The position numbers and the translations under genes are program-made. The notes under the pieces were generated by a model, which saw nothing but the letters and a program-made list of their open reading frames with translations, was not told the origin of the DNA and made no database searches. A stretch of 64,000 nt of DNA, taken from positions 523,001 to 587,000 of the forward strand of contig NZ_BSDR01000001.1 of NCBI RefSeq assembly GCF_027925305.1, given 5' to 3'. The DNA is from Desulforhabdus amnigena (GTDB lineage Bacteria; Desulfobacterota; Syntrophobacteria; Syntrophobacterales; Syntrophobacteraceae). Of this stretch, positions 6,297-43,336 are shown in pieces; position 1 is the stretch's first letter, and every line of letters begins with the position of its first letter.

Positions 6297-9200
6297 TCAG
6301 CGCTGAAATGTTCCCGCGATGCGATTGAGTTCTGCGAGGGCAAAGTCGTAGGCCAGGCGCGCCTGGAGCTCGTCTGATTCCGCCTTTTTCAGTGCCGCCG
6401 CTACTTCAGCATATTTTGCAGAGCTGATGGTGGAGGCCTTGAGCTGGTCAGACGTCAGGCGCAACCTTTCCTGCTGAAGTGCGAGCGCCTCCCGGGCAAC
6501 ATCCATCATGCTTTTTGCATCATCAAGTTTCCTGTATGCCTTGTCCAGTTCGACCGTCACCTGCTCATTTAACCTGTGCAGGTTCTCACTGGCTTGTGAG
6601 AGCTGGGCCCTGCGCTCGCAGACAACGGCTCCGCGTTTGCCCCAGTCCCAGATATCCCAGGACATCATGAGCCCAAATGCGCCGACATCATCCTTCGCAA
6701 AGGACATACCATCCTGGTATGTATTTGCAGCAAAAAGAGTTACATCGGGAATATACTCGTAGCGAGCAGCACTCACCCCGCCCTGGGCCTTTCTCACCGT
6801 GGCTTTGGCGGATTCAATCTCCGGGTTACCGGAAAGCGCCGCCTGCAGGTAGTAATCACGACTTTGAACAGGCCCCTTGGCGGGACCAGGATCGGATAGC
6901 TCTAGTTCCGTCTCGAGAGGCAACCCAAGCAGATGGTTCAGTTCGGAATTGAAGTCCGCTATCCGGATATTTGCCGCCAGAAGGGATTGCTTGTTTTGCA
7001 GGACGGCAGTGCGGCTCTCGGTTACCGCCACCTCAAGCAGGTTCCTGGCAAGGACCGCATTTTCGGCCTCGCGCAGGCTTTCCTGGGCCGCCGCCAGCCC
7101 GGCCTCCGCGGCCTCCTTCTGTTTCCGGGCCACAAGAAGGCCGTAGTAGAGTTGGTGTACGGCAAGAATGATGTCATTTTCCGCCTTTCTTGCGTCCGCC
7201 TCCGCCACCCTCTGGTCAGATCGCGCAATTCCAGTGGCTTCATGAATCTTTAGGAGCTGCGTCAACGGTTGACTGAGAACCGTACTGTTGACGAAAAAAG
7301 ATGAAGAACCCTGATTTGGAGAGGGTGTATTATTGATTGGAAATGCGCCAACATTCGGGATAGGTACGGTCACCAGTTGTGACTCGGAAAGCCCCACGAC
7401 CGCGGAATAGTTGGACAGGCGTGGATAATAGTCGGCCGATGTGGCAGCCACCCTCTTCCCTTTCTCGTCCACTTTGAAGCGGGCAATCTTGACTGCTGAA
7501 TTCCCTTTCAGCGCCAGTTCGACCGCCTCGGGCAGGGTGAGGCGCTTTGTTTCCGCAAATGCCGGATTCGCCGCGAGAATCAATCCCGCGATGCACATGG
7601 CCGCCACGGCAGCGGAAGAAGGCTTTACGGCTCGCGACTTGGCTATTACGAACAGCACCGGGACGACAAGCAGAGTCATGAACATGGACCAGATCAGCCC
7701 GACTGCGAGAACACTTGCCAGGGGGCTCCACAGGCTTGACCCGGAAAGGATCATGGGCGTTACTCCCGCAGCTGCGGCCATGGTTGTCAGAAAGATCGGC
7801 CGAAGTCGGCGCTCCCCCGCCTCCGTTGCGGCCTGCTCAAGCGAGTGCCCCTCGCGGATTCTCTCGTTAATGTAATCGACGAGAATGATTGCGTTTCGCA
7901 CCACGATCCCGCACAAGCTGATGAGCCCCATGAAAGCGGTGAACCCGAACGGGTTGCGTGTAATGATCAGTCCCAGGACAGCACCTGGCATTGCGAGAGG
8001 AATCGAGATCATGACGATCAACACCTCCGTAACTCGCCTAAACTGTATAAGCAGGGTGAGGAAAATGGCGACAAGGCTTATGCCGAGCGCAGTCAGCATC
8101 TCGGGCATGGTCTCCTCGGTGTTGAACTTATCCCCACCGTATTCAATCCTGTACCCCGGCGGAAGCGGCAGCGCCTCTATGCGTGATTGGACCGCATTGA
8201 GGAGCTGCGATGCATAATGGCCATCCTCCACGAAGGCTCTAACCGTCAGGGTCCTCACTCCGTTGCGGCGCACGATCCTGCTGGTCTGCCATTCGGGCTC
8301 CAAAGTAGAGATAGCGCGGAGCGGCACCCTGGCCCTGGTCAACTGAGAGCTGATGTAGGCATCACTCACGTCGCTGAAAGAGGAGCGGGACGCCTGTGCG
8401 AGACGGAGCAGGATGGTGACCGCCCTGTCGCCTTCCCAGAACGTGCTCACAGGGACCCCGTCGAATGCTCCGTCCACTTGCTTCGATATTAAGGAATGGG
8501 TTATTCCGAGTCGGTTTGCCAGTTCCTCGTTGACGTTTACGTCCACCATGCAGGATTCGTTGAAGTAATCACGGTGGACGAAAACCGAAAAGGGGACCTC
8601 AACGAGCAGTTCCTCTACCTGGGAGCCAATGCGTTTTAATTCCTGGATCTCCTCACCCACGATTCGCACCTCGACAGGAGCCTCCAACGAGCTTCCCTGC
8701 TGCAGTTCCTTCACGATGACCAGCGCTTCGGGGACCAGCGATGCAAAGGATTTCCGGAGATCTTCCACCAATGCCGGGGTTTGCTTTGCGGAGTGCGTGT
8801 TGACGACGAACTGCCCATATGCGGCATCCGGCTGCTGGGGATTGACGTTATAGTAAAACCTCGGTGCGCTCTGGCCGACAAAGGTTGCAAAATGCTCGAT
8901 TTCCTTTCTCCCCTTCATGTACGCCTCCATCCGGCGCATCACCGCGTCCGTGGCCTCGATGCGAGCTCCCTGGCCCATCCATACGTCGACCACGAACTGG
9001 TTGCGTTCCGCCGATGGGAAGAACTGCTGGGGCACGAGTGTGGAGAGGAGGAGCCCGGCCGCGAACGCCCCAACCCCCAGCGCCATGGCCGTGACCTTAT
9101 AGCGCATGAAAAAGACAATGATCGCCCTGTAGACGGACTGGATCACATTCAGGATGCTGAATTTTTCCTTGCTTCCGCCCTCCTTGCCGCCGCTGGTGTC

Positions 9201-10688
9201 ATGGAGCCCTTTCCTGATGAAGAATTTGCAGAAAATCGGTGTGATGAAGATAGCCACAATGAAAGACACGGCCAGGGCTATGGCGACCGTTACCGGGAGT
9301 GCAAAGATAAACTCGCCGGATGATCCCGAGAGGATCACCAGGGGCAGGAAAGAAAAGATGATCGTCGCGGTTGCGGCAAGGACCGGAACAATGACTTCGG
9401 AAACGCAGCGCCAACCGGCCTCCTCCCTCGGGACCTTGCGGTCGAGAAGATCGATGTAATTGTCGGCAATCACAATCGCATCGTCCACGACGATTCCTAG
9501 GACCACAATGAGCGCAGCGATAGAAACCTGATGCAGCGCGATTCCCACTGCATTCATTGCCCCCAGGGTTATGCAGAGCGTTATGGGAATGGCGAGTGCC
9601 GCGATCACCGCCACCCGAATGGGCAGCAGTATGATCGTAACAAGAACAACGGATGCTATGGCCAGCATGAATTCATGGCCGAGATGCGTTATTCGCTCCT
9701 TGACGACCTCAGGCTGATTGGCGATGAGATCGATCCGGATATCCGGCGGCAGCAGGGATTTCAGGCGGGTAAAAACCTCCTCGATTCGAACGCCGAGCTC
9801 TACTATATTCTTCCCCTTCTGCATCTCAACGGACAGCAGCAGGCACGGCTCGCCGTCGTAGCGCACAACGAACTGCGGGTCCTGGTATCTCCGCTCCACC
9901 TCGGCAAAATCGCGAATGTAGACGGGCTCCCCTGTTCGGGAGACGTCCACGAGCACACTCCTGATATCTTCTTCCTCATTGAAGAGGCCTGTGGTGTGCA
10001 GGGGAATCTTCGTGCGGTCGGCCTCGAAATGGCCGGAGCTCTCTATGGTATTGCGCTGTTTCAGTGCCTGGATCACGTTAAGCGGGTCCAGGAAATACTG
10101 CGACAACCGCTCCAGGTCGCTCGTTATCCAGATTTGTTCCTGCTGCTGGCCATACATGGCCAGCTTGCCCACTTCACGAATTGTGCGAAGCTCATCTTGA
10201 ATTGTGTCCACGTAGTCACGCAACTCACGGTAGCCATAGCGCTCACCGTGTATTGCGAGAAGCATCGCCACGGTGTCGCCGAAGTCCGAGTTTACGATGG
10301 GCCCCTGGACGCCGTCCGGTAGCTCGGTTGCGCGGGTCTCATTCATCTCGTGACGGATTTTGGCCCACACGAGGTCGGAGTTTTTCACGTAATTTTCAAG
10401 TTCCACGTTGATGATGACCAGACCGGGGCGGCTGGTTGAATACGTTTTCTCCTTGCGGATTTCGGGAAACTTGAAAATGTGTTTTTCCAGGGTTTTTGTG
10501 ACCTGCTTTTCGACTTGCTCGGAAGTTGCACCGGGATAAAGTGCGATGACCAGGCCGGTGCGAATGGTGATGGTGGGGTCTTCGGTGCGCGGCATGTACC
10601 GTAAGGCATAAAGTCCGACCGCAACGGCCATGGCGGTAAGGATCAAAAAAACTATCGGGTAGCGCAGAGATGCCTTTGCCGGGTTCAT
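6297..10688 (-). CDS. RND efflux permease fused to TolC-like outer-membrane protein
   Basis: 1463 residues. Residues 1 to ~1015 form a complete AcrB/MexB-type permease: N-terminal membrane helix, periplasmic porter domains, and VVDDAIVIADN with the paired Asp used for proton relay in TM4, ending in PVLFVIAKSRA. Then comes PSSAAVAAMCIAGLILAANPAFA followed by ETKRLTLPEAVELAL and ~420 residues of an outer-membrane efflux protein (TolC, two OEP repeats). The junction looks like a signal peptide with an A-x-A cleavage site (about residue 1043, nt ~7555). Overlaps the adaptor gene by ATGA. Normally these are separate genes; processing at the internal site may release TolC. Substrate unknown. Confidence 0.9.
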   Translation of the reverse strand: MNPAKASLRYPIVFLILTAMAVAVGLYALRYMPRTEDPTITIRTGLVIALYPGATSEQVEKQVTKTLEKHIFKFPEIRKEKTYSTSRPGLVIINVELENYVKNSDLVWAKIRHEMNETRATELPDGVQGPIVNSDFGDTVAMLLAIHGERYGYRELRDYVDTIQDELRTIREVGKLAMYGQQQEQIWITSDLERLSQYFLDPLNVIQALKQRNTIESSGHFEADRTKIPLHTTGLFNEEEDIRSVLVDVSRTGEPVYIRDFAEVERRYQDPQFVVRYDGEPCLLLSVEMQKGKNIVELGVRIEEVFTRLKSLLPPDIRIDLIANQPEVVKERITHLGHEFMLAIASVVLVTIILLPIRVAVIAALAIPITLCITLGAMNAVGIALHQVSIAALIVVLGIVVDDAIVIADNYIDLLDRKVPREEAGWRCVSEVIVPVLAATATIIFSFLPLVILSGSSGEFIFALPVTVAIALAVSFIVAIFITPIFCKFFIRKGLHDTSGGKEGGSKEKFSILNVIQSVYRAIIVFFMRYKVTAMALGVGAFAAGLLLSTLVPQQFFPSAERNQFVVDVWMGQGARIEATDAVMRRMEAYMKGRKEIEHFATFVGQSAPRFYYNVNPQQPDAAYGQFVVNTHSAKQTPALVEDLRKSFASLVPEALVIVKELQQGSSLEAPVEVRIVGEEIQELKRIGSQVEELLVEVPFSVFVHRDYFNESCMVDVNVNEELANRLGITHSLISKQVDGAFDGVPVSTFWEGDRAVTILLRLAQASRSSFSDVSDAYISSQLTRARVPLRAISTLEPEWQTSRIVRRNGVRTLTVRAFVEDGHYASQLLNAVQSRIEALPLPPGYRIEYGGDKFNTEETMPEMLTALGISLVAIFLTLLIQFRRVTEVLIVMISIPLAMPGAVLGLIITRNPFGFTAFMGLISLCGIVVRNAIILVDYINERIREGHSLEQAATEAGERRLRPIFLTTMAAAAGVTPMILSGSSLWSPLASVLAVGLIWSMFMTLLVVPVLFVIAKSRAVKPSSAAVAAMCIAGLILAANPAFAETKRLTLPEAVELALKGNSAVKIARFKVDEKGKRVAATSADYYPRLSNYSAVVGLSESQLVTVPIPNVGAFPINNTPSPNQGSSSFFVNSTVLSQPLTQLLKIHEATGIARSDQRVAEADARKAENDIILAVHQLYYGLLVARKQKEAAEAGLAAAQESLREAENAVLARNLLEVAVTESRTAVLQNKQSLLAANIRIADFNSELNHLLGLPLETELELSDPGPAKGPVQSRDYYLQAALSGNPEIESAKATVRKAQGGVSAARYEYIPDVTLFAANTYQDGMSFAKDDVGAFGLMMSWDIWDWGKRGAVVCERRAQLSQASENLHRLNEQVTVELDKAYRKLDDAKSMMDVAREALALQQERLRLTSDQLKASTISSAKYAEVAAALKKAESDELQARLAYDFALAELNRIAGTFQR

Positions 10689-18900: not shown

Positions 18901-20409
18901 TCAATCCAAAGCGACGGGGACCGGTTTGGCGTTCCAGATGTCCCTGCAATACTCTCGGATGGCGCGATCCGAGGAGAACTTGCCCATACGGGCGGTGTTC
19001 AGGATAGACATGCGTGTCCACCGATCCCGGTCGCGGTAGGCCGCATCGACCTGTCCCTGCACATCGACGTAGGACGCAAAATCGGCAAAAAGCATGAAGG
19101 TGTCATGGAAAAGAAGCGAGTCGACCAGGGGTTTGAACAACTCCCGATCGCCGTTGGAAAAATCGCCCGAACGGATACGCTCGACGACCCCCTGGAGCTC
19201 CGGGTTCCTCGAGTAGTATTCCATGGGCTGGTATCCGCCCTTTTGAAGCGAGCACACTTGCTCGGCCGTGAGCCCAAACAGGAAGAAGTTTTCCGCGCCC
19301 ACTTCCTCTCTGATTTCAACGTTGGCCCCATCCAGGGTCCCGATGGTCAAGGCGCCGTTCATGGAGAGCTTCATGTTCCCGGTTCCCGAGGCCTCCTTGC
19401 CGGCCGTCGAGATCTGCTCCGACAAGTCGGCGGCGGGGTAGATGAATTTCGCGTTCTTGACGTTGAGATCGGGGAAGAAGACGACCTTGATGCGTCCGGC
19501 CACGTCAGGGTCGTGGTTGACCACCTCGGCCACGGAGTTGATCAGCTTGATGATCCGTTTGGCCATGAAATAACCGGGGGCGGCTTTCCCCCCGAATATA
19601 AAGGTCCTCGGGCACATGTCGTACGCCGGGTTCTCCTTGATGCGGTTATAAAGGGCAACAATGTGCAGAACGTTCAGATGCTGGCGCTTGTATTCGTGGA
19701 TCCTTTTCACCTGGATATCGAAAAGCGATGACGGATCAACTTCGATCCCGGTGCGTTCGCGGATGAGTCCGGCAAGAGTCTTCTTGTTCTCGTGCTTCAC
19801 CCGGCGCCATTCCTCTCGAAAAGCGGTGTCGTTGACAAACTTCTCGATCTGCCGAAGCTCTTCCGACCTGCTGATCCAGGTTTCGCCGATCTTTCCCGTA
19901 ATGAGACGGCTCAAGCCGGGATTGCTCAAAACCATGAACCGGCGCGGTGTGACCCCGTTGGTCTTGTTGCTGAATTTCTCCGGCATCATCTCGAAGAAGT
20001 CACGCAAAACGTCTTGCTCGAGCAGCCGCGTGTGGAGCTCCGCGACACCATTGATGGCATGGCTGCCCACGCAGGCCAGGTGCGCCATGCGCACATAACG
20101 TCCCCCGCTTTCGTCGATGAGGGACATCCTGGCCACGCGGGCTTCGTCTCCCTGGAACCTGTTCCTGACCTCATCGAGGAAACGACGGTTGATCTCGTTG
20201 ATGATCTCCATGTGCCTGGGGAAGAGAGCCATATAGAGGTCGTTTTTGCCGGGGCCTTCCAGGCCTTCCAGAAAACGTCCCTGGGTGTAGAAGAGGTGCT
20301 CGCGGAACGTGCGTCGCAAGCCCTCGATGCTCATGTCTGAACGAGCGGCCATGGAACCGATCCCCGCGGATTCCCCGAGATTCATTTTATTTACTGTTTT
20401 CTTTGCCAT
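18901..20409 (-). pseudogene. glgP: Glycogen/alpha-glucan phosphorylase with large internal in-frame deletion
   Basis: About 502 residues from ATG 20407-20409 (GGAGGA 4 nt upstream), against ~830 in the family. The extreme N-terminus is normal ([28 protein letters not shown]), then it jumps straight to [20 protein letters not shown], normally ~330 residues later. The C-terminal half is complete, with [36 protein letters not shown] and [20 protein letters not shown], where the Lys after GTGNM carries PLP. The missing part builds the N-terminal half of the catalytic cleft, so glycogen phosphorolysis is unlikely. No frameshift is present; junction near nt 20225-20230. Confidence 0.75.
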
Positions 20410-20661
20410 CTTGTCCTCCATCGTGCTTGTGACCCAGCGACTTCAACCCGGTCGCGCTTGCATCCCGACATTTCGATAGAGCAGTAATCATGCCAATCTA
20501 AATTATGCTATAAAATCCATTAATTAAATAGAATGATCTTGTCGTGCCCGAACGTTTCGTCCTATGGGACGAAATTCATTGCCCTATGGTCCGAATGCGT
20601 GCTATGTTCCGGGAAGATGGTGACTTATGCCGCCAATGGCGGAGAAGAGGAGGGAATGAAA

Positions 20662-22238: not shown

Positions 22239-23114
22239 TCATTTATCAAGGATGAAGCCATTGGTTATGAAGTCAAAAATGAACGGTTCGATTTGCTCGT
22301 AGGTGTATTTTCCACTTATCGTGGTTCTCAAGCACATGATTTCGATGATTCCGGTCAGCGTGTATGCTGTGAGGTCTGGATCGATTTTTCGAAATATGCC
22401 TTCCTCAATTCCTTTTTCTATGTCCCGGATGACGGGTTGGGTAAGAGCATGATAGGCCTTCTTGATCTTCTCGTGGGGCCACTGGTCTTCGCCGACCATT
22501 TCAGCACGCAACTGATTCAAGATCTCATTGTATTTCAAGTAGTTTTCATAAAAGATCCTGCCCCGGATCGACAACCTTTTAACGATGTTCTCCTCCTGCT
22601 TCAAGGCTTCCCTTGCATCGCCGATGATAGCCCGTATCACCGCATCCACGACATCGACGAAGAGCTCCTTCTTGTCTTCAAAGTAGATGTAGAACGTACC
22701 GGTCGAGATACCCAAGGAGGCGGTTATGTCTCTGACTTTGACCTTTTGGTAGCCTTTTTCGGAAAAAACCTTGATGGCCGCGTTGACAATCTCCTGCCTT
22801 TTCTTGTCCTTCGCCTTTGTGGTGTTAGTAATCTCTCTGGCCGCAGGTTCGTGTGAATCCCTGTTCTCGCCGTCTCTTTCCTCCAGCTCCGCCAGGCTCT
22901 CTTTGAGAAACGAAAGCGGCATCCGGCCCGCAGCCTTGATTTTTTGAATGTTTTGAAGCCTTTTGAGATGACTCTCGTCGTAGTAGGCCATCGTTCGGCC
23001 GCTCTTTACAGGCGGATGGAGCAAGCCTTGTCTCATGTAGAAGTGTATGGTCGTCCTTGGGACGCCCGCTCTCTTTTCCAGCTCATTGATCCGCATGAAC
23101 CCTTTATTGCTCAT
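22239..23114 (-). CDS. MerR-TetR fusion transcriptional regulator, copy A
   Basis: About 291 residues from the ATG at 23114 (GGAGAG 6 nt upstream). Residues ~4-75 are a MerR-type winged helix (RINELEKRAGVPRTTIHFYM, LLHPPVKSGRTMAYYDE); residues ~105-290 are a full TetR unit with its own helix-turn-helix (VRDITASLGISTGTFYIYFE) and ligand domain. Two different DNA-binding domains in one chain is unusual. Very similar to copy B at 41804-42709. The upstream region has a TetR-like operator overlapping its promoter, suggesting autoregulation. The gene it should control divergently is truncated here. Confidence 0.85.
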   Translation of the reverse strand: MSNKGFMRINELEKRAGVPRTTIHFYMRQGLLHPPVKSGRTMAYYDESHLKRLQNIQKIKAAGRMPLSFLKESLAELEERDGENRDSHEPAAREITNTTKAKDKKRQEIVNAAIKVFSEKGYQKVKVRDITASLGISTGTFYIYFEDKKELFVDVVDAVIRAIIGDAREALKQEENIVKRLSIRGRIFYENYLKYNEILNQLRAEMVGEDQWPHEKIKKAYHALTQPVIRDIEKGIEEGIFRKIDPDLTAYTLTGIIEIMCLRTTISGKYTYEQIEPFIFDFITNGFILDK

Positions 23115-23136
23115 CATCCGCTCTCCATTTTGGTAA

Positions 23137-23150
23137 TGAATGTTCATTCA
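23137..23150. promoter_or_regulatory. TetR-type operator downstream of the copy A regulator promoter
   Basis: TGAATGTTCATTCA has perfect 6-bp arms around TT and resembles TGAATGA-type sites bound by fatty-acid TetR regulators. It sits just downstream of a minus-strand promoter: -35 TTGACA at 23183-23188, 17-nt spacer, -10 TAGTCT at 23160-23165. The same promoter-operator order occurs in copy B (42910-42961). Confidence 0.65.
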
Positions 23151-33074: not shown

Positions 33075-33132
33075 GCGATAGGTTGAGCGCCTTCAAATTC
33101 TCCTTTAAGAGTATCTCTGTGCAGGCTTTCAT
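33075..33132 (-). pseudogene. IstB N-terminal stub of the IS21 remnant
   Basis: ATG 33130-33132 overlaps the end of istA and reads MKACTEILLKENLKALNLS, like the first residues of IstB helper ATPases. The homology ends within about 20 codons where the other transposase fragment begins, so the IS21 element has lost its right half. Confidence 0.5.
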
Positions 33133-34626
33133 GACAGGCCTCCAAGTTCAGCGTACACGGAAACGTCCGCCGGTTCGGTCGCAGGCCAGCCCTTCACAGG
33201 CTCAAAGCTTTCGCCGCCACCGGATGGCAGCAACAGGTGTTTTACGCCGGCGCTGGAGCTCACGCCATTTTGTACCGCCCGTTCCACCGCCGCCTCCACA
33301 TCTTCGGCCCGGTGATCCCGGTAGAGCATCAGCACCAGGATAAATTCCCGGGTCCCATCGGTTTCACCGTGACTTACCACAAACTTATCCCAGAGCCGCT
33401 CCAGGGACTCCGGCCAACTCTTGCGCCACTCTCTTATGGGCCTGGCCGAATCGAAAGCCCCGGGCCTTTGATGAAGCAGATCCAGGTAATGGTCGGGCTC
33501 AAGCCGCCATTTGTTGTTGCCAAACACCCTCTCATGGGTCGCTATTTTCTTGCCCCTCTGAAAAACCTCCACCCGGTCCACTCCGAGGATCGCCTCTACC
33601 CGAAACCCCACATAGCATGTGGGCACCGAATAGCGGTTTTTGTCCAGGATCACGGTTGCATAAGGATTTACCTTGCTCTCCACCGTCTCTATGTTGCTGA
33701 AAGGATGCGTCGGGAGTGCCAATAAATGAGCCTTCTCCTCTTCAAACAGTTCATCGACGCTTTTTTCACGGCCCTCTATCCGATGAGCTCCGTAGTTGAG
33801 ACACTCTCGCAGTATCTTTTCGTTAAGTTCTTCAAGACTCTCCGCTCTCAGGACGGGCACCATGTAGTTGCGCCGGGCAAAACCCACCAATCCTTCCACT
33901 CCACCCTTTTCGTGGCCGCTCGCCACGTTACAGAACCGGGCCGTGAAATTGTAGTAGCTTTGAAACTTCCTGAAAGCCTCCTGTTCCCTGCGATCTTTGC
34001 CCTTCAACACCTTTTCCACGGCGCTGGTTAGATTGTTGTAGACCGCCGTCCTGAAAACACCACCAAAGAACGAAAATGCCCGCATGTGCGCATCAAAAAA
34101 GGCTGCCTGCCTCTCACACGGGTAAAACCGCACATAATGCTTCCCTGAATACTTGGAGCGCATGCAAAAAAAACTTGAGCCGTCTCTCCTCTCCCCCGAT
34201 GATCGCCACAGCCCCTCCCCAGTCTGCTTCCGCTTCCTTGCCACAATCGGGCTCCGGGGGAACAAAAGCCTTGCCGCCTCCTACTCCCAGACGTATCCTG
34301 GCTTGCCGCACATATTGGCGAACCGTTGTCGCGCTACCTTCATAGCCTTCTTCGCTCACCAGCCGATGATAGATCCTCGTCGCGGTGTGACGCTACTTTC
34401 GTGGAGCATCCTTGTCCCCTTCCAACCAGGAATCGATCAGACTCAAGCAGGGACCGAGCACCGGGTAGGGCTGAAACCGCCTCCGCCCGTAACCGCTCGG
34501 CTCACCTCTTAGAACCTTACGGATCGTCTTCCTATCATGGCCCGTTTCCCGTGCAATCTCTCGTATGCTTTTGCCATAAACCCGATGCGCTGTCCGAATG
34601 TACTCATACTGATCCATGTTGATCAT
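33129..34626 (-). pseudogene. istA: IS21-family transposase IstA, interrupted
   Basis: Three blocks rebuild a ~500-residue IstA. Start near 34617-34626 (AGGAGGA upstream): MDQYEYIRTAHRVYGKSIRE with its helix-turn-helix; TAG at 34393-34395 replaces a Gln codon (RK-Q-RHTATRIYH); then EADWGGAVAIIGGEERRLKF; then a frame change in eight A (34167-34174) to the C-terminal block SKYSGKHYVRFYPCERQAAF through LLPSGGGE. The DDE residues include the Asp of the DWG motif. Two lesions make it inactive as read. Direct GGTGGGGGAATTTT repeats at about 34696 and 34731 resemble IS21 terminal repeats. Confidence 0.85.
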
Positions 34627-34719
34627 TCCTCCTGTCCTCCGATAACTCTGGCTGAGTTTTCTATCACCAGATCTTGCTACCAGATGACTGTGGAGGGTGG
34701 GGGAATTTTCGACCGTCAT

Positions 34720-35311
34720 TTGCCTCTTAGGTGGGGGAATTTTAGGCTATCAAAATCAGGTGTCGTCCCGATCAGATTGTCCGGATGCCTAAAACGCTCT
34801 AGGAGGGCCATGGCAAGAGGAGTGAGCTCCGAGCCTCGCCTCCACCATGGCTGCCTCCGGCTCGTTTCGATAGCAAAAGAACTTGACATAGCGGCTATGA
34901 CTCGCTAAATATATACACTATATAGTGGCACCTTAAAGTACTACCGTATTTTATCGCCTGGTGCTATACAACGTCGAATAGTCAAAGAGGATGAGTAGTG
35001 TGCGTTTTTCCCGGGCACCCATATCGATGGAACGAATCTCAGAAGAAGAAAAAGAGGGATGACAGGAGACAGGCTCCATCCATTTGACCGGCTGGTTCCT
35101 TGGAGCTGCAAAGACAGCAGCCCCTCAGGGCCTGTCCGAAAGGATTTTATAACATGGCCGCCGATTGCGGCTGTAACCGACGATCGGGCCAAGGACCTTG
35201 TGCACATTTGCCTTGTGGATGCCATTGAGCTTCCGACTCCAAAGTCGTTGACTCCCGCTGTTTCCGCGGCAGGTTCCCGCGCCTTGAAGAACGGAATCAG
35301 GAGGACGAAGA
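34720..35311. other. IS21 end and long leader of the PadR operon
   Basis: Begins with the IS21 terminal repeats, followed by a strong promoter at 34883-34911 and an operator at 34916-34927 (entered separately). The remaining ~380 nt to the PadR start contain no supported gene; a plus-strand frame at 35059-35331 overlaps the start and looks random. The leader is long enough to hold an RNA control element, but I recognise no riboswitch class. Confidence 0.4.
34883..34927 (+). promoter_or_regulatory. Promoter and palindromic operator of the padR-radical SAM-ABC operon
   Basis: -35 TTGACA 34883-34888, exactly 17 nt, -10 TAAATA 34906-34911. Overlapping the start-site region is the perfect 12-bp palindrome CACTATATAGTG (34916-34927). 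It is well placed to be the site of the PadR repressor encoded downstream, which would make the operon self-repressed until a ligand is sensed. Confidence 0.6.
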
Positions 35312-35725
35312 ATGCCCGTCGATCTGGATGAGTGCCCCTGTTCGGGGAAGAATATGAGTACGCTGTTGGCGCCGTGGATTCTCCTGACTCTTTACCGCCA
35401 CGAAGGGACCCATGGATATGAAATCCAGAAGATGATCCAGCAAAGGCTCTGCGAGCTGGGCCTGGGATCGAATATTGCCGGACTCTATCGCCACCTGAAG
35501 ATGCTTGAAAAGCGCGGGTTGGTCAAGCCCATCTGGGATACCGGCGAGACGGGACCGGCGAGGCGCACCTTTTTTCTCACCGAGGCCGGCAAGGAGTGTC
35601 TTGCTCGATGGATGAAAACCCTGAGCATTCAGATGTCCCTGATCGGCAAATTGTTGGACGAAGCCAACCGGACCTTTCTCCCGCTTACGAGTTCAGCTGA
35701 TATTGCCCATAAGGATGATCTATGA
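35312..35725 (+). CDS. PadR-family transcriptional regulator
   Basis: 137 residues; AGGAGG 7 nt before ATG 35312. The N-terminal winged helix is typical of PadR (LLAPWILLTLYRHEGTHGYE, IAGLYRHLKMLEKRGLVKPI, then RRTFFLTEAGKECLARWM). An N-terminal CPCSGKN with two cysteines is unusual and could sense thiophilic metals or redox, which would suit the ArsM-like partner (inference). The stop overlaps the next gene's ATG (ATGA), so translation is coupled. First gene of a five-gene operon. Confidence 0.88.
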   Translation: MPVDLDECPCSGKNMSTLLAPWILLTLYRHEGTHGYEIQKMIQQRLCELGLGSNIAGLYRHLKMLEKRGLVKPIWDTGETGPARRTFFLTEAGKECLARWMKTLSIQMSLIGKLLDEANRTFLPLTSSADIAHKDDL

Positions 35726-38700
35726 GTGTAAACTCGAAACATGCAGGTGTGGATCAGAACCGCCGCGAGCGATTCCCCTGGCGCCGCCTGCTCTTTGATA
35801 AGACCCCGATCTATCTCGGTGAGAACGAGCCGAATTGGTTCGTGCCGAACACTGCCGGCGATCGGGTGCTCATGGGGATTGCACAGGGCGGGACACCCGA
35901 TGGCGATCACAACACCTTTAAGTTTCTGTCGCGATTACCCCTGAACAAGCCTTTAGATTATGCGGGAAGATACTCGGTATTGGATCTTGAACGAATCGGT
36001 GAGCTCTGGTTTCATCTGACCAATCGCTGCAACATGTCGTGCGCGCACTGCCTGTTCTCGTGCTCTCCGGCTGGCCATTCGGAGCTGCCCGCCGAACGGC
36101 TGCAAGCCATCGCAAACGAGGCTTACGGGACGGGTTGCAGGTTGTTTGCGCTGACGGGCGGCGAGCCTCTCGTTCACCCTCAAATCAGAGAAATCGTAAG
36201 GCAGCTTCTCGATCTCCAAGGGAGCCACGTTGCACTTCTCACCAACGGCCTGGAGCTGGTGCCGTTTCTCGATCACCTGCGACCGGACCCCACCTGTTTC
36301 CATTGTCAAATCAGTCTGGACGGATTGGGGGAGACCCATGACCGGCTTCGCGGCCGCGGCAGCTTTGAAAGGCTTTCAACAACCTTGAGGCTCCTGAAGT
36401 CTCAAGGCATGCCGTACACTCTTTCCATGTGCGTCACGGCCCGGAACGTCCATGAAATGGCGCCGTTGATCGACTTTGCAGGGAGCGTCGGAGCCGCCAA
36501 CGTCCATTTCATGTGGTATTTCGTGAGCGGCCGCGGCACCAAAGAGCTCTTTGCCCCCATCGAGACCATCTTTGAGAATCTCCGGAGCGCTGCGGAGCGT
36601 GCGAAGCAATACAATATTACCATCGACAATCTCGAAGCGCTCAAAACCCAGATTTTCGCTCCCGCGGGGACCATTCACGATGGAGGAACGGCCGGCTGGG
36701 AATCGCTGGCGGTCGGCCCGGACGGGCTACTGTATCCTTCGGCCGCTCTGGTGGGCCGGCAAGAGCTGGCAAGCAGCCTCGATGGAGGTCTCAAGCACGC
36801 CTGGCACCACAGCCCCGTTTTGATGTCTATACGCCAAAGCTCGGCCGGCAGCCAAGGCTCTCCTTTCCGTTTCCTGTTGGGGGGCGGAGACATCGACCAC
36901 AGCTACCTCCACAACAAGAGCTTCCTCGGCGATGATCCCTACCACTCCCTTTATGAGAGGATGGCTCTATGGCTCATAAGCAATGAGGCCTCAGGACAAG
37001 AACAGCGGCCTGAGCCGGGGCTGCTGCTTCGCATGGGCGAAGTCCTGCACAGCTGCGGCGCGCACGGCAAGGTGGCGCTGGTCCATTCCAACTGCCTCCT
37101 TGCCACCGCGCAGAAAGACAGCCTCACGATTGTCAAGGAATTCTATTCAGGGGCCGGAGGCGATAAGAAAGAGCATATCTTGAACCCCGTGAGCTACGAT
37201 CTCTCCTTGATCGACCATATTCCTCGCCAGTATCGGTTTCGAGGCTATGGCTGTGGCAGCCCGGTGCTGGACGCAGCCATCCATGAAGGTGAGAAGATAG
37301 TGGATCTCGGGTGCGGCAGTGGGGTCGAATGCTTCATTGCCGCGCGTTTGACCGGCAGAGCCGGAATGGTGACCGGAATCGATATGCTCGATGACATGCT
37401 TGATCTGTCCCGGAAGGGTATGGTCAAAGTTGAGAAGGCCCTTGGCTACAAGAACCTCGAGTTCAAGAAAGGGTACCTGGAGCAGCTCCCGCTGGAAAGC
37501 GATTCGGCCGATGTGGTGATTTCAAACTGCGTCATGAACCTCTCCGTCAACAAGCGCCGCGCTTATGGCGAAATCTACAGGGTTCTTCGTTCCGGGGGGA
37601 GGCTCGTGATTTCCGATGTCGTTTGCGAAACCGAGCCCGACCCCGCTATCCGAAACGATGAATCCCTGCGGGGGGAATGCATCGCGGGGGCGTTGACCGA
37701 ATCGCATTTGATGGCAATCCTCGAGGAAACAGGCTTCGAGAACGTGCTGTTGATCAAAAGGTTCCCTTATCGAACGGTTCGCGGCCACCATTTCTTTTCT
37801 CTGACCTATTCGGCATTCAAACCCCAGAGATCTGAACGAATCAAGGTGATGTACAGGGGGCCGTTGCCATACCTGGTGACTGAGAGCGGCGATCTGCTTT
37901 TGAAGGGGATTGTCGGGCATATGGAGCGCCATCAGGCGAATTCCCTGGGAGAGCAGGTCTTTCAACTGGATGAGCCAGGCAACGTCACGAACATAGCGGC
38001 GGAAAACAGTTGCTGTTGCTATACCGCTCCCGAGGATACCGCTCCCCCGGATAGCGCTGCGCTTCAAACCCCGAATCGGCTCTTGACGCCCTCCGCAGCC
38101 GCGAAGCAACCGTCCGGCTGCATGGTGTGCGGAGCGCCTCTGGTCTATACGGTACGGGAAATGGAGCATCGATGCTCCTTCTGCGGGATGGTCTTCTCAT
38201 CCAACAGCGCCTGCGGGCACGGACATTATGTCTGCGACCGCTGCCATGCCGAAGACGCCGTGGAGATCATCCGCCATATTTGCCTCCATACCGAAGAAAC
38301 CGACATGATCAAGCTCTTCGAGCAAATCCGGCTCCATCCGGCCGTTCCCATGCACGGTCCCGAGCACCATCCCCTGGTTGCAGCCGTTATTCTGGCCACC
38401 TATAGAAACTTGGGCGGCGACGTCGGGGCGGAGACTCTCTTATCCGCCATTTCGCGAGGCATGAACATCGCCGGGGGAGCGTGCGCCTTCTGGGGGGTAT
38501 GCGGAGCAGCGGCGGGTGTGGGAATCGCTTTCAGTTTGCTGTTGCAGGCCACTCCCGTCAAGGCAAAAGAACGCAAGATGGTTCAAAGCGTCACTCAATC
38601 TGTGCTCAACGACATTGCAAAACTGAAGGCCGCGCGCTGCTGCCAGAGGGACGGGTGGATAGCGCTGACGAAATGTGCCGAGTTGTCCAAAGAGATATTG

Positions 38701-38799
38701 CCCATCGGCCTGAAGGCTGATCATGAGCTGGTCTGCCGTCAGGCGAACCGCAACGCCGAGTGCCTTGGGAAAGCATGTCGCCTGTATCCCAAGGATTGA
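35722..38799 (+). CDS. Radical SAM - ArsM-like methyltransferase - DUF5714 fusion protein
   Basis: 1025 residues, three modules. (1) Radical SAM: CNMSCAHC with C103, C107, C110 binding the [4Fe-4S] cluster, and TGGEPLVHPQI, to about residue 330. (2) Class I methyltransferase at ~500-700 with motif I VDLGCGSGVECF (from ~528) and cysteines placed as in arsenite methyltransferase: GYGCGSP (C511), ISNCVMNLS (C603), CIAGAL (C653); a CCC triplet at 764-766 follows. (3) DUF5714 at ~800-1020 with C-x-x-C pairs (CMVCGAP, RCSFCGMVF, YVCDRCH). No membrane part. Substrate unknown; thiophilic metalloid or thiol chemistry is inferred from the cysteines. Overlaps padR and the permease gene. Confidence 0.82.
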   Translation: MSVNSKHAGVDQNRRERFPWRRLLFDKTPIYLGENEPNWFVPNTAGDRVLMGIAQGGTPDGDHNTFKFLSRLPLNKPLDYAGRYSVLDLERIGELWFHLTNRCNMSCAHCLFSCSPAGHSELPAERLQAIANEAYGTGCRLFALTGGEPLVHPQIREIVRQLLDLQGSHVALLTNGLELVPFLDHLRPDPTCFHCQISLDGLGETHDRLRGRGSFERLSTTLRLLKSQGMPYTLSMCVTARNVHEMAPLIDFAGSVGAANVHFMWYFVSGRGTKELFAPIETIFENLRSAAERAKQYNITIDNLEALKTQIFAPAGTIHDGGTAGWESLAVGPDGLLYPSAALVGRQELASSLDGGLKHAWHHSPVLMSIRQSSAGSQGSPFRFLLGGGDIDHSYLHNKSFLGDDPYHSLYERMALWLISNEASGQEQRPEPGLLLRMGEVLHSCGAHGKVALVHSNCLLATAQKDSLTIVKEFYSGAGGDKKEHILNPVSYDLSLIDHIPRQYRFRGYGCGSPVLDAAIHEGEKIVDLGCGSGVECFIAARLTGRAGMVTGIDMLDDMLDLSRKGMVKVEKALGYKNLEFKKGYLEQLPLESDSADVVISNCVMNLSVNKRRAYGEIYRVLRSGGRLVISDVVCETEPDPAIRNDESLRGECIAGALTESHLMAILEETGFENVLLIKRFPYRTVRGHHFFSLTYSAFKPQRSERIKVMYRGPLPYLVTESGDLLLKGIVGHMERHQANSLGEQVFQLDEPGNVTNIAAENSCCCYTAPEDTAPPDSAALQTPNRLLTPSAAAKQPSGCMVCGAPLVYTVREMEHRCSFCGMVFSSNSACGHGHYVCDRCHAEDAVEIIRHICLHTEETDMIKLFEQIRLHPAVPMHGPEHHPLVAAVILATYRNLGGDVGAETLLSAISRGMNIAGGACAFWGVCGAAAGVGIAFSLLLQATPVKAKERKMVQSVTQSVLNDIAKLKAARCCQRDGWIALTKCAELSKEILPIGLKADHELVCRQANRNAECLGKACRLYPKD

Positions 38800-39698
38800 T
38801 GGAGCTGTTTGTGTTGAATCTGCCGTATGGAAAGAGGAAGATCACTTTGGGGATTGTTGCCGCAATGTTAACACCTGGACGGACCGATGTGACGAAGAGA
38901 AATGGAGGCGGACGACTTGTCCGCCCAGCTTATTCCCTTGCGGCATGGGTGTTCGGGATCGGTCTCTGGCAGATCGTCGCCTGGGTGGTAACGGCCGCAC
39001 GCGGCGTGCCCTTCCCGACTCCCCTTGAATGCGCCCTGGGACTATGGAATCTGCTTGGAGGTTCGCCGTTCCTGGATCATAGCATCTATCATCATGTTTC
39101 TGTCAGCCTCATGCGCTGGATGGAGGGTTTCTGCCTAGGGCTGAGTGGAGGACTGGTCTACGCGCTCGTCGCCGGGTGGGCCCCGTCTTTGAGAAATGTG
39201 ACGATGCCGACGGTTGAGGTTCTGCAGCTCATTCCGGGGCTCGCCTGGATTCCTGTAGCCATCCTCCTCTTCGGCTTGAACCACACTGCAACGGTGGCGT
39301 TGATCGCCCTCACGGCATTCCCCGCCGTGGCCATCGCCGGCGTAATGGGCGTGCGCAGCGTCGATATGCGCTACGTGAGAGCCGGCCGCATGTGTGGAGC
39401 CGGTCCCGTGACTCTCTTCGCCACCGTCTTTCTTCCCGGCGCCTTGCCGCATATCTTGAGCGGTCTGCGCATCGCCCTGGGGGCAGCATGGCGAGTTCTG
39501 GTAGCGGCCGAAATGATTGTCGGGTCCGGTGACGGGCTCGGCTATGCCGTCATTCAATCGCGATGGACAATGGATTATGTGTCGGCGTTTGTCTGCATTG
39601 CGATCATCGCCGCTCTGGGGCTGGGGCTGGAGCGCCTGGTGCTGACGCCGCTCGAACGGCGCACCGTCGGATGCTGGGAGGTAAGAGATGAGCACTGA
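38799..39698 (+). CDS. ABC transporter permease, SsuC/TauC/NitT type
   Basis: About 299 residues if started at ATG 38799, which overlaps the preceding stop (TGATG); a later ATG at 38865 is possible. Six membrane helices (e.g. YSLAAWVFGIGLWQIVAWVV, LIPGLAWIPVAILLFGL) and the EAA-type loop ARAGRMCGAG-x-x-x-LFATVFLPGALPHIL that docks on the ATPase. Belongs to importers for sulfonates, nitrate, taurine and pyrimidine precursors. Its placement behind the radical SAM gene suggests it imports that enzyme's substrate or a precursor. Confidence 0.85.
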   Translation: MELFVLNLPYGKRKITLGIVAAMLTPGRTDVTKRNGGGRLVRPAYSLAAWVFGIGLWQIVAWVVTAARGVPFPTPLECALGLWNLLGGSPFLDHSIYHHVSVSLMRWMEGFCLGLSGGLVYALVAGWAPSLRNVTMPTVEVLQLIPGLAWIPVAILLFGLNHTATVALIALTAFPAVAIAGVMGVRSVDMRYVRAGRMCGAGPVTLFATVFLPGALPHILSGLRIALGAAWRVLVAAEMIVGSGDGLGYAVIQSRWTMDYVSAFVCIAIIAALGLGLERLVLTPLERRTVGCWEVRDEH

Positions 39699-40506
39699 AA
39701 TCGCATTCGAACTGCGACAGGTGCGGAAAGTATTCCCCGGCCGGGGGGGACGCCGGGATGCCGTTGTGGCCCTAGATCGACTCGACCTTGTGGTAGGCGT
39801 GGGGGAATTCGTGGCCGTAGTGGGGCCCAGCGGGTGCGGCAAGACGACGCTCATTGACCTCATTGCCGGTTTCACCCGTCCCACCGAAGGGAGTATAACA
39901 GCCGGCGGACAGCCGGTGCGCTCGCCGGGGCCCGACCGCGTTGTAGTATTCCAGGACCACGCCGTATTTCCCTGGTACACCGCTTTGGAAAATGTAGCCT
40001 ATGGACTGCGCCGGCAGGGGATGGGACGAGACCGGGCCCGGCAATGCGCCCGCGAGGCCCTGAACCGGATGGGACTGGGCAAGTTCGTACACGCCTATCC
40101 GGGGACCCTTTCCGGGGGGATGCGGCAGCGGGTGGCGCTGGCGCGGGCCTTGGTTTTGAAACCCGATATCTTGTTGCTGGACGAACCTTTCGCCGCTCTG
40201 GACGCCGTCACCCGCGTCCGATTGCAGGATGAGCTGGTGATGCTTTGGCAGGACTGCGGCTGGACAGTGCTCTTCGTGACGCACAACCTGGCCGAGGCCA
40301 TCTACCTGGCCGACCGTGTCGTTGTGCTCGACCGGCCGCCGACGGGATTGCGCAAAATCAAACCCATAGTCCTGCCGCGTCCGCGCCGCCGCAGCGATGC
40401 AAGGCTGGGAGAACACGCCGAACATCTGAAAGTGCTCATGGGCGGCTGCTTTGATAACGCTGACAGTGAGGAGAGTGTTTCTGCTCAACACGATAATTTG
40501 GGGTGA
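39688..40506 (+). CDS. ABC transporter ATP-binding protein, SsuB/TauB type
   Basis: 272 residues. Walker A GPSGCGKTT, Q-loop VVFQDHAVFPW, signature LSGGMRQRVALARAL, Walker B ILLLDEPFAALD, and the H-loop FVTHNLAEA, all intact. The FPW after the Q-loop is typical of the nitrate/sulfonate/taurine subgroup. Overlaps the permease gene end by 11 nt and is followed after 4 nt by the binding-protein gene, so the three form one importer. Confidence 0.93.
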   Translation: MSTEIAFELRQVRKVFPGRGGRRDAVVALDRLDLVVGVGEFVAVVGPSGCGKTTLIDLIAGFTRPTEGSITAGGQPVRSPGPDRVVVFQDHAVFPWYTALENVAYGLRRQGMGRDRARQCAREALNRMGLGKFVHAYPGTLSGGMRQRVALARALVLKPDILLLDEPFAALDAVTRVRLQDELVMLWQDCGWTVLFVTHNLAEAIYLADRVVVLDRPPTGLRKIKPIVLPRPRRRSDARLGEHAEHLKVLMGGCFDNADSEESVSAQHDNLG

Positions 40507-40510
40507 TGCC

Positions 40511-41494
40511 GTGAATTCCAAAAAGATGCATGCTTGTATCGTATACACCGTCCTATTCGCCCTTGCCGTTATTATGGCGAAGGGATTTGTCGAAGAATGC
40601 CGCGCCGGCGACAGTCCCATCGTCTGTCGACTCGCCTATACTCCAAAAGGGTATTATGCGCCACAGTTCCTCGCATTCCGAAAGGGCTGGTTCGCGGTGG
40701 ACGGTGTGACCATCCAGGAAGTCAAACTGGGGATGAGCGCCGGCATCGCCGCAGCCGAAGCTCTGGTGAGCGGCAGCGCCGATGTGGCGGTCATGGGCGA
40801 CGTGCCCACCCTCATTGCCCTTGCAAGCCCTCGCAGTTGCGTTCTCGTTGCGGCTTACGGCGGCGGAGAGCGGATGCATTCCATCGTCGTCGCCGGGGAA
40901 TCGACCATCACCAAACCGTCCGATCTGGCGGGAAAACGTCTCGGCGTTCAGTTCGGATCCAGCACCCACGGTGCCGTATATCTTTATCTGGAACATTCCG
41001 GCGTTGATCCGGCGACTGTACATTTAGTCAATCTGCCGCAGAAAGACCTCATTGAAGCGCTCATCAGCGGATCCATCGATGCGCTTGCCGCATCGGAACC
41101 CACGCCTACCCTTGCACAGAGCAAGGTTCCCGGCGCGCGGGAGCTTGCATGTCTGTCGGGCCTGGGCAATGACTATCCCCTGCTCATCGTTGCATCGAGT
41201 GCTTTTGCCGCCGCCCATCCCGAAGCCGTCCGAGCCGTTGTCGCCGGCACACGTAAGGCCGTCGAATGGATTAATGCCGATCCGGATGCGGCTGCAATGG
41301 AGACGGCTGCCGTCACCGGCGCCCCTGCCTCTCTGGAAGCCGCCATGTTCCGGAAGATGGAATGGCGAGTCCGACTGGACGAGAAGACGATCGAGAGCAT
41401 GACTATGACGGCTGAATTCCTACATCGCATTGGAAAGCTAAAGGAAGTGCCCGATGTGAAAGCGCTTTCGAGACAGGATTTGGAGCAACCCTAA
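40511..41494 (+). CDS. ABC transporter substrate-binding protein, SsuA/NMT1-like
   Basis: About 327 residues from GTG 40511, which has GGGGTGA just upstream; a longer frame overlaps the ATPase gene. N-terminal signal (MHACIVYTVLFALAVIMAKG) for export. Core YYAPQFLAFRKGWFAVDGVT and AEALVSGSADVAVMGDVPTL are characteristic of NitT/TauT periplasmic binding proteins, with lobe-2 motif SDLAGKRLGVQFGSSTHG. Ligand cannot be deduced. Last gene of the PadR-controlled operon. Confidence 0.88.
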   Translation: MNSKKMHACIVYTVLFALAVIMAKGFVEECRAGDSPIVCRLAYTPKGYYAPQFLAFRKGWFAVDGVTIQEVKLGMSAGIAAAEALVSGSADVAVMGDVPTLIALASPRSCVLVAAYGGGERMHSIVVAGESTITKPSDLAGKRLGVQFGSSTHGAVYLYLEHSGVDPATVHLVNLPQKDLIEALISGSIDALAASEPTPTLAQSKVPGARELACLSGLGNDYPLLIVASSAFAAAHPEAVRAVVAGTRKAVEWINADPDAAAMETAAVTGAPASLEAAMFRKMEWRVRLDEKTIESMTMTAEFLHRIGKLKEVPDVKALSRQDLEQP

Positions 41495-41803: not shown

Positions 41804-42709
41804 TTATACATTTCTTGTATCTATATCTGAACGGTTATCATCAGGCTTCATTCCGTTGGTTATGAAGTCAAAAACGAACGGCTCGATCTGCTCGTAGTTG
41901 TATTTTGCGTTTATCATTGTTCTCAAGCACATGATTTCGACGATGCCGGTCAGCGTATATGCTGTGAGATCAGGGTCGACGTTTCTGAATAGGCCTGTCT
42001 CGATTCCTTTTTCTATATCCCGGATGACGGGCTGTGTAAGAGCATGATAGGCCTTCTTGATCTTCTCGTGGGGCCACTGGTCTTCTCCAACCATTTCAGC
42101 ACGCAACTGGTTCAGGATTTCATTATACTTCGAGTAGTTTTGGTAGAAGATCCTGCCCCGTATCAACAGCCTTTTGAGGATGTTCTCCTCCTCCTTCAGG
42201 GCTTCCCTGGCATCACCAATGATGGCCCGTATCACCGCATCCACGACATCGACGAAGAGCGCCTTCTTATCTTCAAAGTAAATGTAGAACGTGCCGGTCG
42301 AGATGCCCAAGGTGGCAGTTATGTCTCTTATTTTGACACCATGGTAGCCTTTTTCAGAGAAAACCTTAATGGCCGCATTGACAATCTCCTGCCTTCTTTT
42401 GTCTTTTGCTTTGGTGGTGGTGACAATCTCTCTGGCCGCGGATTCGGGTGAATCCCTGTGCTCGCCCTCTCTTTCCTCCAGTTCTGCTAAACTCTCTTTG
42501 AGGAACGATAGCGACACCCGGCCTTCAATCTTGATTTTTTGAATGTTTTTAAGCCTTTTGAGATGACTCTCGTCGTAGTAGGCCATCGTTCGGCCGGTCT
42601 TTACAGGCGGATGAAGCAAGCCGTGTCTCACGTAGAAGTGTATGGTCGTCCTTGGAACGTCTGCTCTCTTTTCCAGTTCGTTAATCCGCATGAATCCTTT
42701 TTCGTTCAT
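41804..42709 (-). CDS. MerR-TetR fusion transcriptional regulator, copy B
   Basis: About 301 residues from ATG at 42709 (GGAGAACAAG upstream). Same build as copy A: MerR-type winged helix (RINELEKRADVPRTTIHFYV) followed by a TetR unit (IRDITATLGISTGTFYIYFE). Ends with a longer tail (MKPDDNRSDIDTRNV). Divergent from the intact thiolase operon, which it most likely represses through TGAATGTTCATTCA-type sites; an acyl-CoA inducer is plausible given the pathway. Confidence 0.87.
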   Translation of the reverse strand: MNEKGFMRINELEKRADVPRTTIHFYVRHGLLHPPVKTGRTMAYYDESHLKRLKNIQKIKIEGRVSLSFLKESLAELEEREGEHRDSPESAAREIVTTTKAKDKRRQEIVNAAIKVFSEKGYHGVKIRDITATLGISTGTFYIYFEDKKALFVDVVDAVIRAIIGDAREALKEEENILKRLLIRGRIFYQNYSKYNEILNQLRAEMVGEDQWPHEKIKKAYHALTQPVIRDIEKGIETGLFRNVDPDLTAYTLTGIVEIMCLRTMINAKYNYEQIEPFVFDFITNGMKPDDNRSDIDTRNV

Positions 42710-43336
42710 CACTTGTTCTCCATCCAACAGACCGTAGCTTTATAGGTAAGGAAACGCCGATCACTCAGCGTACGCGGATCGGCCGACCGAACCAGGATCA
42801 GCAGCCCAGTAGTATCTCGTAATATTCATGACTTATTCCTGTTCGCTCCATTTGCACTATTCCGCCACTATCCTTTGACAGCCACCAGACTGTTTAGCAA
42901 GCACAGCAATGAATGTTCATTCATAGATGTATAGATTAGTGGAGGTGACCGGAGATGTCAAGCACCCCAAATGGGGCATGACCAGCTTCCTTCTCTAATC
43001 ATCCCTGTTGCCGACTCTATAGACTATAAATCTATAGAGTAAGCACATCTCGTTACCTGCCTGGAGCGGCTTATCCTGCTGAACGCTGTTTCTTGTAAAA
43101 AATATAGTAACTATAATGAATACTTACGTCGGTTCATTCGATCTTGCACTGTAGAGTGTTTATCCGTTGACAGCCATAAAACTATTGAGTATGTCTAGTC
43201 ACGAATGTTCGTTCTAACTATGTAGATCGTTTCGGATGAGGATTGTAGCAGCATCCTGCAGAGCTGAGCCAATGGGGTTCCCGAAACACAGGCATGGTGC
43301 AACTAACAAAGCTTCAGCTGCGAAAAAGGGGTAAAG
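42710..43336. promoter_or_regulatory. Divergent control region between regulator copy B and thiolase operon
   Basis: Minus-strand promoter: -35 42956-42961, 17 nt, -10 TAATCT 42933-42938, operator TGAATGTTCATTCA 42910-42923, then a ~200-nt leader to the regulator start that copy A lacks. The leader contains a second TTGACAGCCAC promoter-like block (~42877). Plus-strand promoter: TTGACA 43167-43172, 17 nt, TATGTC 43190-43195, then CGAATGTTCGTTCT 43202-43215. A palindrome CTCTATAGA/TCTATAGAG spans 43015-43039. Layout is consistent with one regulator controlling both directions. Confidence 0.65.

Follow-up and report, generated by a model that had tools for sequence, protein, structure and literature searches.

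A radical SAM/ArsM-like/DUF5714 fusion protein of Desulfobacterota as a candidate carbon–arsenic bond-forming enzyme

The window, a 64,000-nucleotide stretch of Desulforhabdus amnigena DNA, encodes a 1025-residue protein in which a radical SAM domain, an ArsM-like methyltransferase and the Cys-rich domain DUF5714 are joined. This fusion is a real family and not an oddity. We judge it an evenly balanced proposition that the protein is a single-polypeptide enzyme that forms carbon–arsenic bonds and takes the place of ArsM and ArsS in arsenosugar-type pathways. We propose this because of the ArsM-like domain, the partner families shared with ArsS, the co-occurrence with TIGR04283, the exclusion of ArsS, and the known pairing of radical SAM enzymes with ArsM.

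The gene lies in a tight run of five genes (35312–41494; ORFs and junctions were read from the sequence). The features are as follows:

33129..34265, minus strand: remnant of an IS21-family transposase, ahead of the operon (NF033546, E 1e-41)
35312..35725, plus strand: PadR-family regulator, 137 aa (PF03551, E 7e-12; N-terminal CPCSGKN)
35722..38799, plus strand: triple fusion of radical SAM, ArsM-like methyltransferase and Zn-ribbon plus DUF5714, 1025 aa
36001..36477, plus strand: radical SAM core, residues 94–252 (PF04055; CNMSCAHC)
36478..37110, plus strand: SPASM/twitch-like continuation, residues 253–463 (PqqE alignment; fold matches to PqqE, anSME, SkfB and SuiB)
37165..37821, plus strand: ArsM-like methyltransferase, residues 482–700, with C511, C603 and C653 (PRK11873, CmArsM alignment, fold)
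37822..38019, plus strand: ArsM-type C-terminal domain, residues 701–766, ending in a CxC, C764–C766 (NF040538 matched to its end)
38119..38268, plus strand: Zn-ribbon-like cysteine cluster, residues 800–849, the metal being presumably zinc (seven invariant Cys; MbdU match over 759–1023)
38269..38787, plus strand: DUF5714, residues 850–1022 (PF18978, E 1e-60)
38799..39698, plus strand: SsuC/TauC/SaoP-like permease (NCBIfam/Pfam), apparently a private neighbor outside the conserved system
39688..40506, plus strand: ABC ATPase, NtrD/TauB/SaoA-like, likewise apparently private
40511..41494, plus strand: NMT1/THI5 (SsuA-like) substrate-binding protein (SsuA_fam, E 3e-42)

The junctions are an ATGA overlap (PadR/fusion), a TGATG (fusion/permease, with the permease ATG at 38799), an 11-nt overlap (permease/ATPase) and a 4-nt gap before the binding protein, which begins with GTG at 40511. 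They agree with the preliminary description, as does the PadR regulator with CPCSGKN ahead of the fusion; at 34883, where it placed the start of the locus, there is upstream sequence and no supported gene. The fusion ORF is intact, with neither a stop nor a frame problem. A selenoprotein version of the gene was considered and ruled out, as there is no in-frame TGA. Consensus promoters and terminators in the sequence were not more numerous than in shuffled sequence.

Several other features of the window were recorded. In an ORF of 1463 aa (6297–10688, minus strand), residues 5–1016 match an AcrB-type RND pump and residues near 1280–1459 a TolC-like outer-membrane efflux protein (OEP); such a union of inner-membrane pump and outer-membrane channel is topologically odd. 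Two regulators of about 300 aa (22239–23147 and 41804–42727, both on the minus strand) combine an N-terminal MerR HTH with a TetR HTH in one protein; their starts are very similar, and the second is directly downstream of the operon. Another ORF (18901–20421, minus strand) matches positions 273–712 only of a carbohydrate phosphorylase model and is possibly a truncated or variant enzyme.

The fusion of these three domains, as first described, was confirmed by Pfam and NCBIfam models and by an alignment of 51 full-length members. Matches were obtained to Radical_SAM (E 3.5e-18), to the arsenite methyltransferase model PRK11873 (E 8e-60) and to DUF5714 (204 bits, past the Pfam gathering score of 26.2), and the protein contains CNMSCAHC, GYGCGSP, SNCVMNLS and CIAGAL. 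The radical SAM cysteines C103, C107 and C110 and the methyltransferase cysteines C511, C603 and C653 are invariant in 51/51 members, which puts the fusion far beyond chance. Equally invariant are C445, C458 and C537 and seven Zn-ribbon-like cysteines ahead of DUF5714 (C800, C803, C818, C821, C831, C838 and C841), all of which had gone unremarked before, and seven cysteines of DUF5714 itself, whose conserved features are HGPEHH, GGxC..GxCGAA, RCC and three C-terminal Cys. A CCC triplet reported earlier is present in the window protein, but the family conserves the CxC alone (C764 in 46/51 and C766 in 49/51, the middle C765 in just 14/41). The literature consulted contained no paper on DUF5714.

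The assignment of the methyltransferase as ArsM-like is supported by its sequence, by three predicted arsenic-ligand cysteines and by the predicted fold. In a phmmer alignment, C511, C603 and C653 are equivalent to C72, C174 and C224 of CmArsM, in line with the initial claim that they are placed as in arsenite methyltransferases; by this alignment, they may converge near the SAM pocket. The domain scored 205 bits with the ArsM model versus 83 bits with DVU_1556. It should be noted that the curated cut-off of PRK11873/NF008823 (263 bits) was missed by both the whole protein (202.7) and the domain alone (205.4), and that the arsinothricin ArsM model was matched nearly to its last position but at 176 bits versus a cut-off of 500. 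An AlphaFold model of the fusion was computed from 51 sequences (pLDDT 86.5, pTM 0.73); its best 13 PDB matches were all ArsM or human AS3MT, over about 280 columns that include the ArsM C-terminal domain. The next matches, SkfB, anSME, PqqE and SuiB, were to the radical SAM part. When modeled alone, DUF5714 reached a pLDDT of 92.5, and in a fold search against the PDB it had no solved relative (best match E 2.3). The earlier suggestion that a single protein combines radical chemistry with methyl transfer was a fair guess.

The radical SAM domain belongs to the SPASM lineage, is closest to ScmF, AlbA, PqqE and SkfB, and is not ArsS-like; the best ArsS (TIGR04167) match of the genome has an E value of 6.6e-12, far below the 300-bit cut-off. 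The positions of the SPASM cysteines of PqqE are filled by other residues, and C445 and C458 are the only invariant cysteines in residues 253–463, a region that alignment and model predict to be a SPASM-shaped domain whose cluster ligands are lost. The same folds, together with matches to AlbA and StsB models, would suit a RiPP-type maturase that acts on a peptide or on the Cys-rich tail of the fusion itself, the methyltransferase serving as an additional tailoring domain. We consider such a maturase very unlikely, as no recurrent small precursor gene was seen among the listed neighboring ORFs (at least 60–80 aa), the SPASM cysteines are missing, and the methyltransferase is ArsM-like rather than of the peptide type.

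A scan of the genome collection gave 30 loci, the majority of them encoding full-length fusions that are 44–74% identical, and the fusion was found in 32/395 sampled genomes of the phylum, a count that includes two split genes (L099 and L100) and two genes cut by contig ends (genomes G307 and G036). The broken ORFs in L021, L026 and L099 are different-frame overlaps or possible sequence errors, while L100 appears to be truly split, with a short overlap, into a radical SAM–ArsM protein and a separate DUF5714 protein. In the nearest relative (L002), the fusion is 74% identical and the PadR gene, 67% identical, is kept beside it. A full-length fusion was also seen in a metagenome bin on a contig titled Candidatus Anammoximicrobium (L030, Planctomycetota); it groups with the Desulfobacterota sequences, so that either horizontal transfer or mis-binning may account for the label.

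The locus looks horizontally acquired, since an IS21 remnant lies upstream, the G+C content of the operon is higher than that of its flanks, and presence in the genus and family is patchy. Indeed, a same-genus genome (G001) lacks DUF5714, which was found in 1/25 other genomes of the genus or family of the window. The IS21-family transposase is in pieces over 33129–34719 (minus strand), and this decayed element, shortly before the PadR operon, is consistent with horizontal arrival. A 23-nt imperfect direct repeat lies at 34696 and 34730, by the remnant.

The preliminary description had credited the fusion with its own SsuABC-type importer. When co-occurrence was checked, this importer was not conserved, the outcome that the description itself had named as its refutation: homologs of the permease, ATPase and binding protein followed the fusion at none of the other fusion loci examined, the importer was absent beside the fusion also in a check of 44 relatives, and a search at 1e-45 through 389 other genomes of the phylum gave no match to the binding protein. 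In the nearest relative, a convergent ORF begins 159 nt after the fusion, with PadR retained and the importer absent, and the genome of that relative (G023) contains no binding-protein match at 1e-20. The ABC importer thus appears to be an accidental or lineage-private partner, given that it stands beside no other fusion locus and that the locus is patchy and IS-flanked. As to its type, the binding protein matched the NMT1/THI5 fold family and scored below the SsuA-family cut-off (144.8 versus 163.5 bits), and the Sao-type cut-offs were missed as well (SaoP 119.7/295, SaoA 211.7/360, SaoX 33.4/300 bits); a Sao or sulfonate type was rejected, being below every cut-off. The neighborhood comparison across fusion loci likewise led us to reject the importer as a system component. 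A PadR-controlled route in which a dedicated importer would take up a metalloid, sulfonate or C1 compound for radical modification and then methyl transfer is accordingly the least probable of the readings considered here: the tight overlaps suggest co-transcription in this one genome, but as a general system it is already contradicted by the co-occurrence data. The relative that retains PadR without an importer and the scores below the sulfonate and Sao cut-offs also speak against it. The case illustrates that an operon-like run in one genome can mislead.

Other genes recur near the fusion elsewhere. In a clustering of the neighbors and a Pfam tally of 106 of them, the commonest were VTT/TVP38, DUF2064, pyridine-nucleotide reductase and glycosyltransferase 2. 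With NCBIfam models, the tested neighbors were named TIGR04282 and TIGR04283, all over the curated cut-off, and PRK06370, a MerA-like reductase; "arsenosugar biosynthesis glycosyltransferase" is NCBIfam's name for the first two families. TIGR04282, TIGR04283, TVP38 and the MerA-like reductase are therefore the recurrent partners. These glycosyltransferases are near the fusion in about 10 loci, most fusion loci having none adjacent. Both are fused in one protein 47 nt after the fusion gene in L091, a similar gene follows 13 nt after the fusion in L095, and in L003, a member of the 9-row clade of the window, TIGR04282 overlaps the end of the fusion. On the tree of the fusion, it takes 7 separate changes to account for the loci with an adjacent glycosyltransferase, so that the link is not due to one lucky lineage. 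Moreover, in 8/27 fusion genomes that have TIGR04283, it is no more than about 10 kb away from the fusion, versus about 1% expected (rough binomial 8e-10). In L092 (3646–5949), a 767-aa protein that joins a TVP38/TMEM64 membrane domain to a MerA-like FAD reductase is encoded directly upstream of the fusion gene.

TRAP transporters directly 3' of the fusion in L023 and L031 could import organic substrates, and could point to a radical SAM domain that cleaves or rearranges C–As bonds, in organoarsenical demethylation or recycling, instead of forming them. This conjecture is quite unlikely to be correct, since the chain also contains a methylating domain and the partners include glycosyltransferases, both of which argue for synthesis.

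In L104, a stand-alone DUF5714 gene (from about 9477) directly follows a TrsS radical SAM gene (8177–9472), and a DVU_1556-like methyltransferase is nearby on the opposite strand, so that the three functions of the fusion are met there from different families. At least two unrelated arrangements hence combine radical SAM, methyltransferase and DUF5714, suggesting that DUF5714 serves both enzymes, perhaps as a substrate carrier. The fusion might be a fused cousin of the uncharacterized TrsS/DVU_1556-type systems of radical SAM, methyltransferase and Cys-rich proteins, its substrate being a soft element other than arsenic or a metal-thiolate (antimony, selenium, tellurium or mercury) or else a small thiol. 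The L104 arrangement, the match of the DUF5714 region to the metal-binding selenoprotein MbdU and the MerA-like reductase neighbors all favor such a substrate; we nevertheless consider it unlikely, because the ArsM score well exceeds that for DVU_1556, the As-binding triad is kept, and the particular families found as partners are the ones that accompany ArsS.

At ArsS (TIGR04167) loci, all four partner families of the fusion also adjoin ArsS; in 20 other genomes, picked for ArsS and TIGR04283 on one contig, TVP38 was at 11 ArsS loci and the MerA-like reductase at 8. These recurrent neighbors tie the fusion to the ArsS/ArsM arsenosugar pathway, and the initial statement that no characterized pathway has such a set was too strong. 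Among the 395 genomes, TIGR04283 was over the cut-off in 27/32 fusion genomes versus 140/363 others (p = 7e-7), and ArsS was found in 1/32 versus 118/363 (p = 2e-4); these are per-genome Fisher tests on sampled genomes that are not independent. Three of the five TIGR04283-negative fusion genomes (G026, G032 and G034) have matches at E 1e-50 to 1e-52, just under the cut-off. ArsS and TIGR04283 co-occur in 99/119 ArsS genomes, and G036 is the sole genome with ArsS and the fusion together. The TIGR04283-positive genomes (167 or 166 in total, owing to borderline scores) divide into 1 with both enzymes, 98 with ArsS only, 26 with the fusion only and 42 with neither (exclusion p = 4e-11). When collapsed by family, the exclusion is weaker (p = 0.009), as 4/17 fusion families also contain ArsS. 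Within such families the enzymes are swapped: in f47, three genomes have the fusion without ArsS and G344 has ArsS without the fusion, and in f40, the fusion is present in G125 and ArsS in G410. Together with the near-exclusion, these swaps are the pattern that two enzymes with a single slot to fill would give. The 42 TIGR04283 genomes with neither leave room for yet another enzyme there.

The genome of the window has no TIGR04282 or TIGR04283 match over the cut-off. Its nearest TIGR04282 match (87 bits, at 499581) was rejected as an arsenosugar gene, as its neighbors look by eye like molybdenum/tungsten cofactor genes. A canonical stand-alone ArsM (357 bits) is encoded at 2,530,191, near genes that by eye resemble ArsR, ArsC and Acr3. 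The fusion is thus not simply the detoxification ArsM, and a plain detoxification role for it is unnecessary. Several points count against a carbon–arsenic synthase: the glycosylation link is absent exactly in the genome of the window, the radical SAM domain is not ArsS-like, the PRK11873 score is below 263, the exclusion of ArsS weakens by family, most fusion loci have no adjacent glycosyltransferase, the arsenosugar label of these transferases comes from NCBIfam, and neighborhoods of the TVP38/MerA type would suit other metals too.

To our knowledge, carbon–arsenic bond formation has been characterized for only two radical SAM enzymes, ArsS and ArsL. ArsS and ArsM start arsenosugar synthesis, ArsS adenosylating arsenic, while ArsL transfers the 3-amino-3-carboxypropyl group of SAM to As(III); each works with an ArsM (PMC8552651, PMC12159101). 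For a carbon–arsenic-forming fusion, we infer the substrate, the order of steps, the radical fragment and the role of DUF5714 as follows. Trivalent arsenic would be captured by the ArsM-like domain through C511, C603 and C653 and would receive a methyl group from SAM. The resulting methylated As(III) would be handed to the radical SAM domain, probably via the cysteines of the CxC, Zn-ribbon and DUF5714, and there a second SAM-derived fragment would be attached, most likely 5'-deoxyadenosyl as with ArsS. In many relatives, TIGR04282/TIGR04283 glycosyltransferases may then elaborate the product; these being missing in the genome of the window, the pathway there probably ends earlier, at a simpler organoarsenical.

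We advance more tentatively, as somewhat short of evenly balanced, that anaerobic Desulfobacterota have a third, independently evolved radical SAM carbon–arsenic synthase, made of a cysteine-stripped SPASM domain, ArsM and the new Cys-rich DUF5714 fold, which would make, without oxygen, organoarsenical natural products of a class not seen so far. There is in any case a real chance that the fusion is a third radical SAM route to carbon–arsenic bonds. If so, the synthesis of organoarsenicals has arisen more than once and takes place in anoxic sediments, which are not a usual place to look for arsenosugar producers. The fusion is widespread in sulfate- and sulfur-reducing bacteria, nearly excludes ArsS and retains the ArsS partners, and DUF5714 gains a testable role.

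Among known systems, the selenoprotein fusions NF041536 (ArsM-DUF2284) and NF041537 (ArsM-AhpD) likewise join ArsM to an extra domain; they have no radical SAM domain and depend on selenocysteine. The metal-binding double selenoprotein MbdU (NF045648) has a homologous CxC–Zn ribbon–DUF5714 region (134 bits, far below the cut-off of 600), whereas the fusion has no selenocysteine and joins this region to other domains. In the TrsS/DVU_1556 methyltransferase/DUF5714 neighborhood (e.g., L104), the same three functions are partners, but as separate genes, with a Tes-like radical SAM protein and another methyltransferase family. The ArsQML arsinothricin cluster of Burkholderia gladioli also relies on cooperation between a radical SAM enzyme (ArsL) and ArsM for C–As bonds; it differs in having separate genes and a dedicated exporter, ArsQ, and in an ArsM whose model the fusion matches at 176 of 500 bits. 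Finally, compared with the ArsM + ArsS pathway (Synechocystis; NF038099, TIGR04167, TIGR04282, TIGR04283), the fusion has one chain, another radical SAM lineage and an added Zn-ribbon/DUF5714, and the genome of the window is without the glycosyltransferases; both systems likewise pair a methyltransferase with a radical SAM enzyme, in relatives the glycosyltransferase, TVP38 and MerA-like partners are the same, and the fusion and ArsS nearly exclude each other.
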